DNA from: Syntrophobacteraceae bacterium
GTDB lineage: Bacteria; Desulfobacterota; Syntrophobacteria; Syntrophobacterales; Syntrophobacteraceae
Assembly (NCBI GenBank): GCA_031292215.1
Contig: JARLHO010000163.1
Span: forward strand, 1-36,649
Length of the DNA: 36,649 nucleotides
Reading direction: 5' to 3'
The position numbers and the translations under genes were made by a program. Positions within the stretch are counted from its first letter, which is position 1, and every line of letters starts with the position of its first letter. Of the stretch, positions 28,542 to 34,808 are shown piece after piece. The notes beneath the pieces were generated by a model that saw nothing but the letters and a program-made list of their open reading frames with translations, did no database searches and was not told the DNA's origin.

Positions 28542-29276
28542 ATGAGCCGGATTTTGGTAATTGACGACGATACGGAGCTATGCGAGTTGCTGGCTGATTA
28601 TCTAAAACCGGAGGGGTTCCAACTCACCTCGGTTCACGACGGCGAACAGGGGCTGCAAAGAGCCATATCCGAAGCCGGGGGATACGACCTGATCGTGCTC
28701 GATATCATGCTCCCCGGAATGAATGGCTTCGAAGTTCTCCAGCGTCTGCGCTCCCAAATGGATACGCCCGTTCTCATGTTGACCGCGCGAGACGAAGATG
28801 TGGACCGCATCGTCGGCCTCGAGATGGGAGCTGACGACTACCTGCCCAAGCCGTTTAATCCCCGCGAACTGATTGCGCGCGCCCGGGCCATACTGCGCAG
28901 AACCCGGGCCGGACAGGAGAGGGGCGTTTTTGCTTCCCGGCCCGAAACCATATCGGTTGGCGATATCGAAATGGATACGGGAAGCCGGATAGTACGACGT
29001 AGCGGCGAAAGGGTCGAGTTGACCTCGGTTGAGTTTGGGTTTTTGGAGATGCTTCTTCGCTCAGCCGGACACGTTGTGACGCGCGAGCAACTGGCGGAAG
29101 GCGTCCTTGGCCGCTCCCTTGCGGCCTTCGATCGGAGTGTGGACGTTCATCTGAGTAGTCTAAGAAAGAAGCTCGGCCACAGGTTCGGGGAATTCGAACG
29201 GATCAAAACGGTTCGGGGCGCCGGTTACGTGTACACAAATCCACCCAGGTCCGAGAAGGACTGGGTCCCGCAATGA
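28542..29276 (+). CDS. cpxR: OmpR-family response regulator, CpxR-like
   Basis: This 244-aa regulator has a receiver domain (residues 1-120; DDD acidic pocket, phosphoacceptor D54 in LIVLDIMLPGMNG, Thr in LTARDED, Lys in DYLPKPF) and an OmpR/PhoB winged-helix DNA-binding domain (about 140-235; VELTSVEFGFLEMLL, REQLAEGVLG, VDVHLSSLRKKLG, RGAGYVY). The sequence style is that of CpxR. The sensor kinase gene follows 28 bases later, and a convergent Spy/CpxP-like gene with CpxR-type sites lies just beyond, which supports a Cpx-like envelope-stress role. A GTAAA-N5-GTTTG half-match at 28489-28503, 39 bases upstream of the start, may allow autoregulation. Confidence 0.88.
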   Translation: MSRILVIDDDTELCELLADYLKPEGFQLTSVHDGEQGLQRAISEAGGYDLIVLDIMLPGMNGFEVLQRLRSQMDTPVLMLTARDEDVDRIVGLEMGADDYLPKPFNPRELIARARAILRRTRAGQERGVFASRPETISVGDIEMDTGSRIVRRSGERVELTSVEFGFLEMLLRSAGHVVTREQLAEGVLGRSLAAFDRSVDVHLSSLRKKLGHRFGEFERIKTVRGAGYVYTNPPRSEKDWVPQ

Positions 29277-29304
29277 ACGATTCGCGCCGGGAGGCGAAAT
29301 TTCC

Positions 29305-30756
29305 ATGAGAAGCCTTTTCATAAAAATCTTTCTCTGGTTCTGGGTCGCGATGGCCCTTGTCAGCGTTGCCTCCTTTCTTTCGGCGGTCGTAACGGAGTCG
29401 CATCCCTTCTTCGCCATACCGTGGCTGGCAAGGCTCATCGTGCGCCCGCCCACTCGCGGCCATTTGGAGATAAAACCCGGGTCTTACGATCGGTGGTCGA
29501 GTGTTGCGGGAAATTCGCTCAGGCTCTCGGGGCAAACGGCCGTAGAGATTTACGAGCACGAAGGAAAACCGCTTTTTTTGCATTATGTGAGCGAGCTCGA
29601 AAGAGTAGTGCGCATCGACTTTTTTCTCTACGACGACCACAATGTTAAATTGACTCCGGGTCCGGCGCCTGTCCAGGTAACCACGCTATCTTTGCACCAC
29701 AGCAAAGAGGGGCTGGATTTCAGGCGGACCGAAAACGCCATTTTTCTGGCCCAGCAGCTTCCAGGGCCCAGCGGCAAAAACTATACGCTTATCACCAGGA
29801 TACCGATTCGCCACTTTCTTTTAGGCAATTTCCGCTTCTGGACAACGAACCTCTTCATTATTTTCATTACGGCCGGAGGGGTATGCTACTGGCTCGCCCG
29901 ATATATCTCGACGCCTATCAGTAAGCTTGGGGCGGCGGCAAGAAACCTTGCCGACGGAGACCTAAAAGTCCGGGTCGGTTCGGTTTGGGGAAGAAGACGC
30001 GATGAGATCGGGGAACTTGGCCGGGATTTCGACCAGATGGCGGAGCGGTTGGAATCGCTTATCGGCTCGCAGAAGCGTCTTTTGCGGGACATCTCCCATG
30101 AGTTCCGCTCCCCGCTCGCGCGGTTGACCGTGGCGCTCGAAATAGCGCGAAGAGGCGAGCGGAGGGAGACAACACATGCGTTGGATCGCATAGGGTTGGA
30201 GGCCGAGAGGCTCAATGGGCTAATCGGCAAACTGCTCATGCTGGCCCGATTGGAGAGCGGGGTGGAGGAGGCGGAAAAAACGCCTGTGGCCATGGCTGAA
30301 CTGGTGGAGGAGCTGGCGGCCGATGCCGACTTCGAAGCCAGAGGACGCGATTGCCGGGTTGAAATTGTTTCGGCCGAAAACGGTATTGTTGTGGGAAACA
30401 GGGAACTGCTGCGCAGCGCGGTGGAAAACGTGTTGCGAAATGCCGTGCGCCACACGGCCGAAGGTAGCGAGGTGAGGGTTTCCCTGGGATTTGTGCAAAA
30501 GGGCGGAAGCGGTTTTTACTCGGTAATCGAGGTGGTGGACAAGGGGCCAGGGGTTCCGGAATCATCCCTTGCCGACCTTTTTTCTCCTTTCTACAGGGTC
30601 GGGGACGCTCGCGACAGAAAGCGGGGCGGAACGGGGCTGGGGCTGGCCATAACGGAGCGTGCGGTAAGAACTCACGGCGGCCGGGTGTGGGCGCAAAATG
30701 GTTCGGGAGGAGGACTCATCGTGACTATCGAGCTTCCTGCAAAAAGCGCGGCGTGA
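29305..30756 (+). CDS. cpxA: Sensor histidine kinase, CpxA-like
   Basis: The 483-aa kinase has a TM helix at about 5-28, a periplasmic sensor region (about 30-170), a second TM helix (about 178-200) and a HAMP domain (about 195-250; the segment ISKLGAAARNLADGDLKVRV). Then come the HisKA helix with H265 in RDISHEFRSPLARL and a HATPase domain with N-box (ENVLRNAVRHT), DKGPGVP and GGTGLGLAI. Domain order and H-box match CpxA. It phosphorylates the preceding regulator. Its stop is followed by a GC-rich hairpin shared with the convergent Spy/CpxP-like gene. Confidence 0.88.
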   Translation: MRSLFIKIFLWFWVAMALVSVASFLSAVVTESHPFFAIPWLARLIVRPPTRGHLEIKPGSYDRWSSVAGNSLRLSGQTAVEIYEHEGKPLFLHYVSELERVVRIDFFLYDDHNVKLTPGPAPVQVTTLSLHHSKEGLDFRRTENAIFLAQQLPGPSGKNYTLITRIPIRHFLLGNFRFWTTNLFIIFITAGGVCYWLARYISTPISKLGAAARNLADGDLKVRVGSVWGRRRDEIGELGRDFDQMAERLESLIGSQKRLLRDISHEFRSPLARLTVALEIARRGERRETTHALDRIGLEAERLNGLIGKLLMLARLESGVEEAEKTPVAMAELVEELAADADFEARGRDCRVEIVSAENGIVVGNRELLRSAVENVLRNAVRHTAEGSEVRVSLGFVQKGGSGFYSVIEVVDKGPGVPESSLADLFSPFYRVGDARDRKRGGTGLGLAITERAVRTHGGRVWAQNGSGGGLIVTIELPAKSAA

Positions 30757-30820
30757 TAGTTTATAGACTCACAAGTACAGGGCTCTATGCGACTCTGTTG
30801 TTGGCGTATAGGGGGGGGCG

Positions 30821-30859
30821 ACCGGGCCCTCCGGCCTGGGTTTTGCCGAAGGCCCCGGT
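30821..30859. terminator. Hairpin between convergent cpxA and spy-like genes
   Basis: ACCGGGCC (30821-30828) pairs with GGCCCCGGT (30851-30859) with one bulged base, around a loop of about 22 bases. An 8-G run (30811-30818) precedes it. It could act as a bidirectional stop, but there is no clean T-tract. Confidence 0.4.
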
Positions 30860-30878
30860 TAGGAGTGCGCAAAAACAG

Positions 30879-31430
30879 TTAATGCATTTGTTCTTCAGGC
30901 GAAGATTTCTTCCAGTGTCTCGGGTGTTTGGACTTGTACGTCTCGTGCATGGTGTCGAGTTTTGCACGCTGCTCAGGGGTCAGCACTGCTCGTATCTTGT
31001 AGAGGATGTCTTCTCTTTCGACGATCACCTTAGCTAGCGTTCTGCCCTGTTTTTCTGCAATGGCCCGAACTTTGGCTTCATCAAACCTGCCGGTTTTACG
31101 AAGGGCTACAAGCTCCTCGCGTCCGGCTTTGAGTTCTTTGATGAGCGGTTTCATTTTCGGGTGAGCCTTCTCTCTTATGGCTTTTATTTCCTTTTTTTGC
31201 GCTTCGCTCAGATTGAGCTGTTTAAAGAAATTCGGGTGATGGTGAAAATCTTTGCGATGGTGCATTCCATTTGAGGGCGCAGTGGTCTGCTCCTGGTTTT
31301 GTGGGGGGGCAGGCGCTGGAGCGGGTGTGTTTTCCGCGCCTATTGCAATGGAATTGAAAAACACCCATGATCCGGTCATCCACAACGCCGCCACAATCAG
31401 TACGGCAAATCCAGTCAAAGTCTTTTTCAT
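30879..31430 (-). CDS. Spy/CpxP-family periplasmic LTxxQ protein
   Basis: This 183-aa protein has an N-terminal signal sequence (about 1-31), a Pro/Ala/Gln-rich linker and a helical Spy/CpxP domain. The two family motifs are LNLSEAQKKEI (about residue 73) and LTPEQRAKLD (about residue 150), with a His-rich stretch HHRKDFHHHP between linker and domain that may bind metal. Spy and CpxP are periplasmic chaperones and feedback inhibitors induced by Cpx/Bae envelope stress. Convergence with the cpxRA-like pair and four CpxR-type half-sites upstream suggest it is the main output of that system. AAGGAG lies about nine bases before the ATG. Confidence 0.88.
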   Translation of the reverse strand: MKKTLTGFAVLIVAALWMTGSWVFFNSIAIGAENTPAPAPAPPQNQEQTTAPSNGMHHRKDFHHHPNFFKQLNLSEAQKKEIKAIREKAHPKMKPLIKELKAGREELVALRKTGRFDEAKVRAIAEKQGRTLAKVIVEREDILYKIRAVLTPEQRAKLDTMHETYKSKHPRHWKKSSPEEQMH

Positions 31431-31657: not shown

Positions 31658-31686
31658 TTGACAGATGCATTGGAATTTCATAGAAT
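31658..31686 (+). promoter_or_regulatory. Strong sigma70 promoter feeding the GEMM riboswitch
   Basis: TTGACA (31658-31663, perfect), 17-base spacer, TAGAAT (31681-31686, five of six). The predicted start near 31693 coincides with the 5' edge of the riboswitch aptamer. Confidence 0.72.
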
Positions 31687-31691
31687 GAGTG

Positions 31692-31775
31692 TGTTCCTGT
31701 AAAAGCCAAACCCGGCGTGAGCCGGGGACGGAAAGCCAACGGGTCTTGCAGAAGACGGCCGGGTTGCCCGGGAAT
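31692..31775 (+). ncRNA. GEMM (cyclic di-GMP-I) riboswitch aptamer
   Basis: The core follows the GEMM pattern: AAAGCCAAACC (31702-31712), a hairpin with a GTGA (GNRA) tetraloop on a CGGC/GCCG stem (about 31713-31725), GGGGACGGAAAGCC (31724-31737), a second stem closed by GTCTT-GCAG-AAGAC, and GCCGGGTTGCC (31758-31768). In the Vibrio Vc2 aptamer G21 pairs with C46; here these are C and G, a compensatory swap that supports the fold. The position equivalent to G20 remains G, which favours c-di-GMP over the cGAMP-sensing variant (A20). Flanking TTCC/GGAA may form the closing stem. The downstream GCCCGGC segment could pair with the aptamer's 3' side as a switch. Confidence 0.85.
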
Positions 31776-31838
31776 TGGGTGGGGGGAGGAATAGCTCGAC
31801 CTTTTTTGCCCGGCAATCCGCAGTCCCGGAATTTGTCT

Positions 31839-32267
31839 ATGACAGGACCCGATCGGTTAACAAGCATAGTAAATGCGTATGTTCAAAGTTCGCGCATCGT
31901 TTACAAATCGCGCGGCGCGGCCGGGCCAAGCGATGACAGGGTGCAGATTTCCAGTGAGGGGCTGCAGAAATCAAAAGAGTTTTTAGCACAGGTAAATGAT
32001 CAAATTTATTCGAAAGAATATGTTTCCACTTCGCAGGAAGATGTTTCCACAAGCAGGCCGGCCGGCGATAACCTGGAGATATTGAACCTATCTTCGAGCG
32101 CGAGTCTGGACCAGATTCACAGGGCCTATGTTTCGGCCATCAAGCAATACCATCCCGATAACTTCAACCGCTACTCCCCGGAATTTAAAAAACTGGCCGA
32201 GGAAAAGAGCAAGCAGATCATTCGGGCTTATGAAAACTTAACCAAGTTTTCGTATAGATCCGCCTGA
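31839..32267 (+). CDS. Small J-domain protein with FlgM-like N-terminal region
   Basis: The 142-aa product ends in a J domain (about 83-140) with the HPD motif at residues 105-107 (AYVSAIKQYHPDN) and helix IV (IIRAYENLTKF), which would stimulate an Hsp70. Its N-terminal 60 residues (LTSIVNAYVQSSR, then DRVQISSEGLQKSKEFL) resemble the disordered N-terminal part of FlgM-type anti-sigma28 factors, a tentative reading. A VSTS repeat links the two parts. The start is uncertain: ATG 31839 has no good Shine-Dalgarno, while GGGGGAGG at about 31782-31789 is placed for a TTG at 31806 in the same frame. The gene is directly behind a GEMM riboswitch and 220 bases before fliD, so it is probably a c-di-GMP-controlled motility gene. 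Confidence 0.75.
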   Translation: MTGPDRLTSIVNAYVQSSRIVYKSRGAAGPSDDRVQISSEGLQKSKEFLAQVNDQIYSKEYVSTSQEDVSTSRPAGDNLEILNLSSSASLDQIHRAYVSAIKQYHPDNFNRYSPEFKKLAEEKSKQIIRAYENLTKFSYRSA

Positions 32268-32322
32268 ACTGCGGGGGCAAAGCATTCCGGGCGCTTCCTG
32301 TAAAAAAAATATATTTTTTGTT

Positions 32323-32349
32323 TTAGTTTTTCGCAAACTTTACCGATTT
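32323..32349 (+). promoter_or_regulatory. Possible sigma28 (FliA) promoter for fliD
   Basis: TTAG (32323-32326), 15 bases, then ACCGATTT (32342-32349) resembles TAAA-N15-GCCGATAA, with the central CCGAT conserved. Flagellar cap genes are often sigma28-dependent. The leader that follows has a hairpin, GGTCCTGT/ACGGGACC (32361-32368 with 32375-32382). Confidence 0.3.
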
Positions 32350-32486: not shown

Positions 32487-34808
32487 GTGTCTACAACGTC
32501 TTCTACCTCTTCGAACCTAAGCCTTACCTCGCTGGGGACAGGCATAGACTGGCAGAGCATCGTAAGCCAGTTGACCCAGGCTTCGGAACAGGAACTTACG
32601 CCGTACAACAACGAAATCAGCGCTTACAACACCCAGCTTTCCGCCTGGGGAACGATGTCCAGCGATCTTAGCGCGCTCCAGACATCGGCCACCACCCTGG
32701 CAAGCCCGACGGGTCTTAGCCTTTACACCGCGAACGTGACGTCCAATTCAAGTACGAGCGCATCGTCTCTGCTTTCGGCAACCGCGTCTTCCTCGGCAAA
32801 CACGGGCACCTACAACGTGGTGGTAAACTCCGTTGCGCAGGCTCAAAAACTGGGATCCAGCGATTTCTCCTCGCAGACAACCGGGCTTAATTTAACGGGG
32901 AACTTCCTGGTGAACGACCAGGCGGTGTCGGTTGCCTCAACCGACACCCTGCAGACCCTTCAGACCAAAATCAACGCACTCGATACGGGCAGCAATGCTT
33001 CCGGGGTAACGGCTTCCATAGTCCAAAACAGCTCGAAGAGTTTCCGGCTGGTGCTCTCAAGCGATACCACCGGGGCCAATGGCATCAGTCTTCTAAACGG
33101 GGACACCAATAATGTGCTCGAATCCCTTGGCTTTAACGGGAGCGGGGCGGCCACGGTCAAAAACCAGGTGACCGGAGGGGCGCAAAGCGATGGTTTTACG
33201 GACACGAGCACCGCAGTCGGCACGCTTTTGGGAATAGGCGCCACTACCTCGGGCGCAGTAACCATAAACGGCAAAAGCGTAACTCTCAATCTGTCCGACA
33301 GCCTTTCAGGGATGGAGTCCGCTCTCAATACTGCGGGCCTTTCGGCCTCCATAGTCTCTTCGACCAGCGGTTCGACCACCAAATACAGCCTTCAGATCAC
33401 GGGCGGCATCAACTCCTTTTCGGACAACAACAACGTGTTGCAGAACATGGGGTTTATCCAGGGAGACCGGGCCAGCCAGACAGGCGTAACAAGCGGCACG
33501 GCGAACACAACGGACGGATCGACCCCGATCACGGCGGCAACGCCTCTTACCAGTATTTATGGCTACAACACCTGGACTTCGGGGGATTCGATCGCCCTTA
33601 CCGGAACCGATCACAGCGGTAATAGCGTCTCCTCGAATTTTTCCATAGGCCAGACTTCCACCGTTGGCGATCTTTTAAACCAGATTGACAGCGCTTTTGG
33701 CAACGTCACGGCCTCAGTTGGCACGAGCGGTCAGATCCAGGTGGTCGATAACGCCACCGGGACCAGCAAACTCTCCCTTGGCCTTGCGCCAACCGTACAA
33801 GACCCGAATTCCACCCTTGGTTTCGGCGCTTTTGGAGCGGTCGGGACATTGAGCCAGCATGTGCTCCAGCAAGGCGCCGATGCCTCTTTTAGCATTGACG
33901 GAATGAACCTTGCCAGTTCAAACAACACGGTTACGAGCGCAATATCGGGGGTGACTTTAAACCTGCTTGGAGCAAGCCCCGGCACGAACCTTACACTCAA
34001 TGTGGCTCACGATACGAACAGCATCGAAAGCCAAATCAACAGCATGATTTCCTCTTTCAATTCCATCGTATCGGCGATCAACACGCAAAACACTTATAAT
34101 GCGACTACAAATACCACGGGCGGCCCTCTTTTCGGCGACCCCGTGCTTCAGGGTCTAAAATCCCAGCTTGAATCCACTGTCTTAAATCAAACGGGCTCGG
34201 GCAACTACAACAGTATGCCGGCAATCGGGATAACCGTTGGCGCAAACGGCCTTTTGAGCTTGGATACATCGACTTTCGAAAGCGCCGTTTCAACCGATTT
34301 TCAGGCCGTATCCAATATTTTTCAGGACTCCGGGACGTCCAGCAACCCCCTGCTTAGCTACGCGAGCAACACCAGTTCCACGAAGTCGGGCGCCTACGCA
34401 GTCGATTTCTCTTCGAATTCCTCGGGAACAATCGACGGGCAAACGGCCACGGGCAACGGGAATTCCTTGAGCCTCGGCAGTTCCCAAAGCGGGGCGAACG
34501 GACTGGTGGTGAGTTATTCGGGAAACACTTACCCAGCCAACGCGACGATTACCGTAAACCGGGGAATCGCCAGTCTTTTAAACGATCTGGTCAATTCCTA
34601 CACCAGTTCCGCAGGTGGAATAATCACCACCGAGAACACGGGCATCAACAGTTCCATAACCGGACTCCAGCAACTGGAAAGCAACATGCAAACCAACATC
34701 AACACGCAGATGGCGTCGCTTTCCAAGGAATACCAGAACATGAACACCGCCGTCGCCCAGTTGGACCAGATGCAGAGCTATCTGACCACCCAGTTGGCCA
34801 ATCTCTAG
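32487..34808 (+). CDS. fliD: Flagellar filament cap protein FliD
   Basis: FliD (hook-associated protein 2) caps the flagellar filament and folds incoming flagellin. The N-terminal FliD_N region (LSLTSLGTGIDWQSIVSQLT, EISAYNTQLSAWG) is followed by several flagellin-IN-like repeats (for example GTYNVVVNSVAQAQKL, GAVTINGKSVTLNLSDSLSG, ADASFSIDGMNL). The FliD_C region has the coiled-coil end (ESQINSMISSFNSIVSAINT, YQNMNTAVAQLDQMQSYLTTQL). Composition is Ser/Thr/Asn-rich and Cys-free. At 773 aa it is longer than many FliD proteins, because of the central repeats. I chose GTG 32487, five bases after AAGGAGGG; the frame opens at 32391 but the residues before the GTG do not look like FliD. Confidence 0.93.
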   Translation: MSTTSSTSSNLSLTSLGTGIDWQSIVSQLTQASEQELTPYNNEISAYNTQLSAWGTMSSDLSALQTSATTLASPTGLSLYTANVTSNSSTSASSLLSATASSSANTGTYNVVVNSVAQAQKLGSSDFSSQTTGLNLTGNFLVNDQAVSVASTDTLQTLQTKINALDTGSNASGVTASIVQNSSKSFRLVLSSDTTGANGISLLNGDTNNVLESLGFNGSGAATVKNQVTGGAQSDGFTDTSTAVGTLLGIGATTSGAVTINGKSVTLNLSDSLSGMESALNTAGLSASIVSSTSGSTTKYSLQITGGINSFSDNNNVLQNMGFIQGDRASQTGVTSGTANTTDGSTPITAATPLTSIYGYNTWTSGDSIALTGTDHSGNSVSSNFSIGQTSTVGDLLNQIDSAFGNVTASVGTSGQIQVVDNATGTSKLSLGLAPTVQDPNSTLGFGAFGAVGTLSQHVLQQGADASFSIDGMNLASSNNTVTSAISGVTLNLLGASPGTNLTLNVAHDTNSIESQINSMISSFNSIVSAINTQNTYNATTNTTGGPLFGDPVLQGLKSQLESTVLNQTGSGNYNSMPAIGITVGANGLLSLDTSTFESAVSTDFQAVSNIFQDSGTSSNPLLSYASNTSSTKSGAYAVDFSSNSSGTIDGQTATGNGNSLSLGSSQSGANGLVVSYSGNTYPANATITVNRGIASLLNDLVNSYTSSAGGIITTENTGINSSITGLQQLESNMQTNINTQMASLSKEYQNMNTAVAQLDQMQSYLTTQLANL

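Follow-up and report, generated by a model that had tools for sequence, protein, structure and literature searches.

The window analysed here, a stretch of 36,649 nucleotides from a Syntrophobacteraceae bacterium (contig JARLHO010000163.1), carries a sigma70-type promoter, a c-di-GMP-I (GEMM-I) aptamer and a gene for a protein with a J domain, and aptamer and J-domain protein (JDP) form a unit conserved at three kinds of locus. We consider it likely that a c-di-GMP-I riboswitch of the C21-G46 subtype controls translation of a class C JDP as an ON switch, and that the JDP recruits DnaK to its clients. The riboswitch would govern translation from the extreme 5´ end of a sigma70-type transcript. 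In the ligand-free state, strands of the aptamer helices P1 and P3 would pair with the Shine-Dalgarno (SD) and start-codon region; upon binding of c-di-GMP, P1 would form, the ribosome-binding site would be freed and the co-chaperone would be made. The JDP would then recruit DnaK through its HPD motif, and its genus-specific N-terminal half would pick the clients. Both messenger and chaperone partner exist, since the genome holds 12 GGDEF matches and three Hsp70 genes.

The usual targets of c-di-GMP riboswitches are surface, secretion and motility genes. As a kind of target gene for this known riboswitch class, a JDP is new to us, and a search of the open-access literature found no paper linking c-di-GMP riboswitches and J-domain proteins in substance. 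A conserved and repeatedly linked JDP in the c-di-GMP regulon would place the Hsp70 machine under direct RNA control by a second messenger.

Promoter, aptamer and expected ligand

Transcription is predicted to start at about 31693–31696, at the 5´ edge of the aptamer, from a sigma70-type promoter (TTGACA-17-TAGAAT; 31658–31686, + strand) that matches 11 of 12 consensus positions in a scan. In an alignment, five orthologous loci keep the promoter, in sequence as well as in position, 5´ of the aptamer; the same promoter was not seen in the divergent G015 among the aligned orthologous leaders. Because weaker sites (at least 9/12) are expected by chance at about 1.3 per region, this conservation outweighs the scan score as evidence. 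An initial annotation, made from the sequence, had placed a sigma70 start at the edge of the aptamer, and the match and its conservation bear this out.

The same annotation named a covariance-model scan as the check on its aptamer. At 31696–31772 (+ strand), an RNA with a C21-G46 pair and a GUGA tetraloop scores above the gathering score of two Rfam models, RF03167 (c-di-GMP-I-GGC; 65.2 bits, E 2e-13 over the whole window, gathering 59) and RF01051 (c-di-GMP-I; 59.0 bits, gathering 35). The Rfam alignment assigns the key bases as G20 (31705), C21 (31706), C22 (31707), G45 (31730), G46 (31731), A47 (31732) and C92 (31767), so the C21-G46 swap and the preserved G20 had been read exactly. The ligand-contacting G20, A47 and C92 are all kept, as are the conserved C22, C44, G45, A48 and A49. 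These kept bases all stand in a published list of class-wide conserved GEMM-I positions (PMC3764141), from which positions 21 and 46 are absent. Because G20, A47, C92 and the C21-G46 pair are present, the aptamer should bind c-di-GMP. It has the fold of RF01051 in common with the Vc1/Vc2 examples from V. cholerae, together with G20/A47/C92, the C22-G45 pair, a GNRA loop on P2 and the interhelical contact base C44, but differs from these examples in having C-G instead of G-C as the 21-46 pair and a J-domain protein as its target.

RF03167 is the best-scoring Rfam model and has P1–P3 of similar lengths, which might indicate a c-di-GMP-I-GGC variant that senses another ligand, or a cGAMP riboswitch. 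This is very improbable. The letters GGC in the name stand, we infer, for positions 20, 47 and 92; the RF03167 consensus has G47, whereas the window and nearly all related aptamer matches of the class carry A47, and the 21-46 pair is swapped relative to the model. The Rfam label is thus misleading for this aptamer. cGAMP riboswitches, moreover, are tied to A20 (PMC7288161, on G20A), where the window has G20.

The J-domain protein and its neighbourhood

The JDP gene (31839–32267, + strand) begins with an ATG 66 nt beyond the end of the aptamer and encodes 142 amino acids. A Pfam DnaJ match (PF00226, E 8.7e-10) covers residues 80–138, with an intact HPD at residues 105–107. Pfam gave no other domain above its cut-off in the JDP, and the G/F-rich, zinc-finger and CTD regions are absent; with a J domain and HPD alone, the protein is by its sequence a class C JDP. 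Orthologs are 45–65% identical, with the J domain and HPD invariant, and the full-length architecture was found only in the genus of the window. Residues 1–75 form an N-terminal region without recognised homology, in which a motif D-x-V-x-(I/L)-S-x-E (D33, V35, S38, E40) is invariant in a set of 8 orthologs and paralogs. AlphaFold2 applied to three sequences gave a mean pLDDT of 55, with 64–77 for the J-domain blocks and poor values outside them. A 192-aa open reading frame that starts with GTG at 31689 and crosses the aptamer was rejected as a gene; conservation starts at the ATG at 31839.

Short JDPs with one dedicated task beside a general DnaJ are exemplified by the single-domain AtcJ of Shewanella oneidensis, which acts in cold adaptation and carries a 21-aa C-terminal extension (PMC6715715) where the JDP of the window has a 75-aa N-terminal region instead. 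The NCBIfam matches include a model for a J-protein of cold adaptation (ActJ). The PilZ-DnaK chaperones CsdK1 and CsdK2 of Myxococcus xanthus likewise join c-di-GMP with the Hsp70 system, but do so as a fusion of PilZ and Hsp70 at the protein level (PMC10313047), whereas the window would have an RNA switch on a co-chaperone gene.

Directly after the JDP gene lies fliD (32487–34808, + strand; Pfam FliD_N 1e-20, FliD_C 8e-43), as initially annotated; it holds the sole FliD_N match in the genome. The order promoter-aptamer-JDP-fliD is kept in six species (G018, G020, G021, G022, G023 and the window) within a conserved context of RR-HK-Spy-like-JDP-fliD. In the window, the upstream genes (28542–31430) encode an OmpR-type regulator, a HAMP histidine kinase and a divergent LTXXQ (Spy/CpxP-like) protein; they resemble a Cpx-type envelope-stress module, and are conserved beside the JDP-fliD pair. 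JDP and fliD stand side by side in a single clade of the genus only. An ancient JDP-fliD linkage was rejected: in G015, G016, G017 and G019, fliD is present and no JDP stands upstream of it. Related JDPs with a C21-G46 aptamer of their own and no fliD occur in G015 (C285) and G018 (C390), the latter being the second of two aptamer-JDP copies in that genome. A PilZ-domain protein is encoded upstream of this extra copy (L074:2080-2445, - strand). JDPs with no detectable aptamer were found within the genus in G016, G017, G019 and G018 (C397).

Because aptamer-JDP units occur without fliD, in G015 and in the second copy of G018, the JDP and not fliD is taken to be the target of the riboswitch, in agreement with the initial choice of the J-domain protein as the regulated gene. 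A riboswitch that mainly serves fliD, with the JDP as a passenger in the leader, would suit the position of fliD as the next gene on the same strand and the lack of a terminator-like site between the two genes. We give this reading little credence, considering the units just described, the four genomes in which fliD has no JDP upstream, and a conserved sigma28-like promoter that separates the genes in six species. This promoter (TTTAGTTT-12-ACCGATTT; 32322–32349, + strand) takes the form (T/C)AGTT-N-CCGATT across the six and follows the generally known sigma28 consensus; the G018 site was read by eye and ranks below the top matches of the scan. fliD thus seems to have a transcript of its own, and read-through from the JDP gene is possible. 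With its own sigma28-like promoter, and with four genomes in which it lacks a JDP, fliD is an unlikely true target.

The N-terminal half had been likened to FlgM, the anti-sigma28 factor (PF04316), and the protein had been credited with a direct role in handling sigma28 or flagellar export. The likeness reduces to one stretch, DRVQIS at residues 33–38 (31935–31952, + strand), the sole FlgM-like segment by hhalign and ortholog alignment, which the real FlgM of the genome matches over six residues as DRVQLS. Searches of Pfam and NCBIfam with a set of 8 JDP orthologs and paralogs gave no FlgM match at E<=10. When the JDP N-terminal profile was compared with a 21-sequence FlgM profile, hhalign returned 2–4% probability over 17–18 columns around DRVQIS, and one of 100 column-shuffled controls scored above the real comparison. 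The conserved C-terminal core that follows the motif in FlgM is missing from the JDP. The genome encodes its true FlgM elsewhere, on contig C88, and FlgM is present in 23 of the 26 genomes of the family. On the results from Pfam, NCBIfam, hhalign and the shuffled controls, FlgM homology was rejected beyond the short motif. A FlgM-J fusion whose N-terminus binds FliA (sigma28) and hands it to DnaK, as a direct sessile/motile switch, could draw on the similar distance of the motif from the N-terminus in both proteins and on the sigma28-like promoter of the adjoining fliD. Against the profile results, the separate FlgM and the JDP relatives at non-flagellar loci, we regard such a fusion as very improbable.

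A direct part in sigma28 handling or export likewise finds no support: members of this JDP family are also encoded away from flagellar genes, and fliD has a conserved sigma28-like promoter to itself. What would point to any flagellar or sigma28 function is position in one clade and the short motif. One intriguing, if rather improbable, possibility is that a co-chaperone whose level is set by c-di-GMP remodels a flagellar client, such as FliD, the sigma28/FlgM complex or an export component, and so couples chaperone choice to the sessile/motile decision. At another locus (L116, G010:C247), a G21-C46 GEMM-I aptamer precedes a small protein with DRVTLSPEGL, again of the form D-x-V-x-(I/L)-S. Judging from these sequences, the motif may be a mark of several small proteins controlled by c-di-GMP.

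Expression platform and direction of switching

The region between the aptamer and the start codon (31773–31838, + strand) was studied by duplex scans and folding. UCCCGG at 31824–31829 overlaps a weak SD and is complementary to the 3´ strand of P1 (31768–31773), and AUGACAGG at the JDP start codon is complementary to the 5´ strand of P1, CCUGU. Among about 80 windows, pairing of the 3´ strand with the SD comes out best in five of the six orthologs, and AUGACAGG is the best partner of the 5´ strand in four of them; for each of the P1 pairings, about 4% of common-shift controls are equally good. The complementarity between the weak P1 helix and the ribosome-binding region is suggestive. In the free fold of the window, the 3´ strand of P3 pairs with UCCCGG...UUUGUCU and buries both SD and start codon, and when the aptamer core is folded without P1, CCCGGG of P1 pairs with the SD. 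In folds constrained to contain the aptamer, the SD becomes clearly free in G022 alone and slightly so in G020 plus G021; in G023, G018 and the window it is not freed.

We moderately favour an ON switch, in which ligand binding would release the ribosome-binding site. The converse, an OFF switch by which the JDP is made at low c-di-GMP only, in the motile state, is the less probable direction, though it deserves weight. It would fit the neighbouring fliD and the three of six orthologs in which the constrained folds leave the SD unfreed, and it has a precedent in Cd1, a c-di-GMP-I aptamer likewise near flagellar genes that is described as an off switch before a flagellar operon (PMC4744006). 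Cd1 acts on the operon itself; in the window a JDP would be the target, with a separate promoter for fliD. Both P1 strands, however, complement the ribosome-binding region in the orthologs, as would fit release upon formation of P1, and a scan of the leader found no intrinsic terminator on the + strand.

C21-G46 aptamers in the class and phylum

The C21-G46 swap is present in all orthologous leaders of the locus. The initial annotation was right about its presence; a special standing of the swap was rejected on surveys of the class and the phylum. Searching 56 genomes of the class with RF03167 yielded 101 GEMM-I matches, 37 of which combine C21 with G46; this is the only count used, as regular-expression typing, when applied to G21-C46 aptamers, put about 25 of the 101 sequences out of register. 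Across the phylum, a strict C21-G46 sequence pattern turned up in 49 of the 395 genomes and in 33 of the 246 genera that were sampled, at about 80 sites versus one for a backward control. The P2 stem covaries: 39 distinct C21-G46 sites are 98% paired, versus 63% (maximum 69%) when the 3´ partners are shuffled. The C21-G46 subtype is an ordinary and widespread branch of GEMM-I, common in the phylum, for which the Rfam name GGC misleads. Eight of the 37 C21-G46 aptamers of the class stand before a member of the JDP family of the window; the other targets, read from sequence, are mostly apparent secretion-signal proteins, plus a PilZ-like protein.

Several further arrangements were seen in the surveys. 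Three C21-G46 GEMM-I cores form an array of about 230 bases at G233:C44:89111-89338, G256:C44:107945-108171 and G278:C42:114160-114383, an arrangement conserved among these three genomes of one genus, and a tandem of two such aptamers is found at G002:C1:3041693-3041894. The genome of the window has a second GEMM-I aptamer (L002, G000:C122:27549-27639), of the G21-C46 type and scoring 74.7 bits with RF01051, which precedes a repeat protein that is putatively secreted; pairs of this kind recur in G018, G020, G021, G023 and G024. G21-C46 GEMM-I aptamers at L103, L123 and L124 precede a protein, about 295 aa long, that recurs in several genomes and is HDOD-like by eye.
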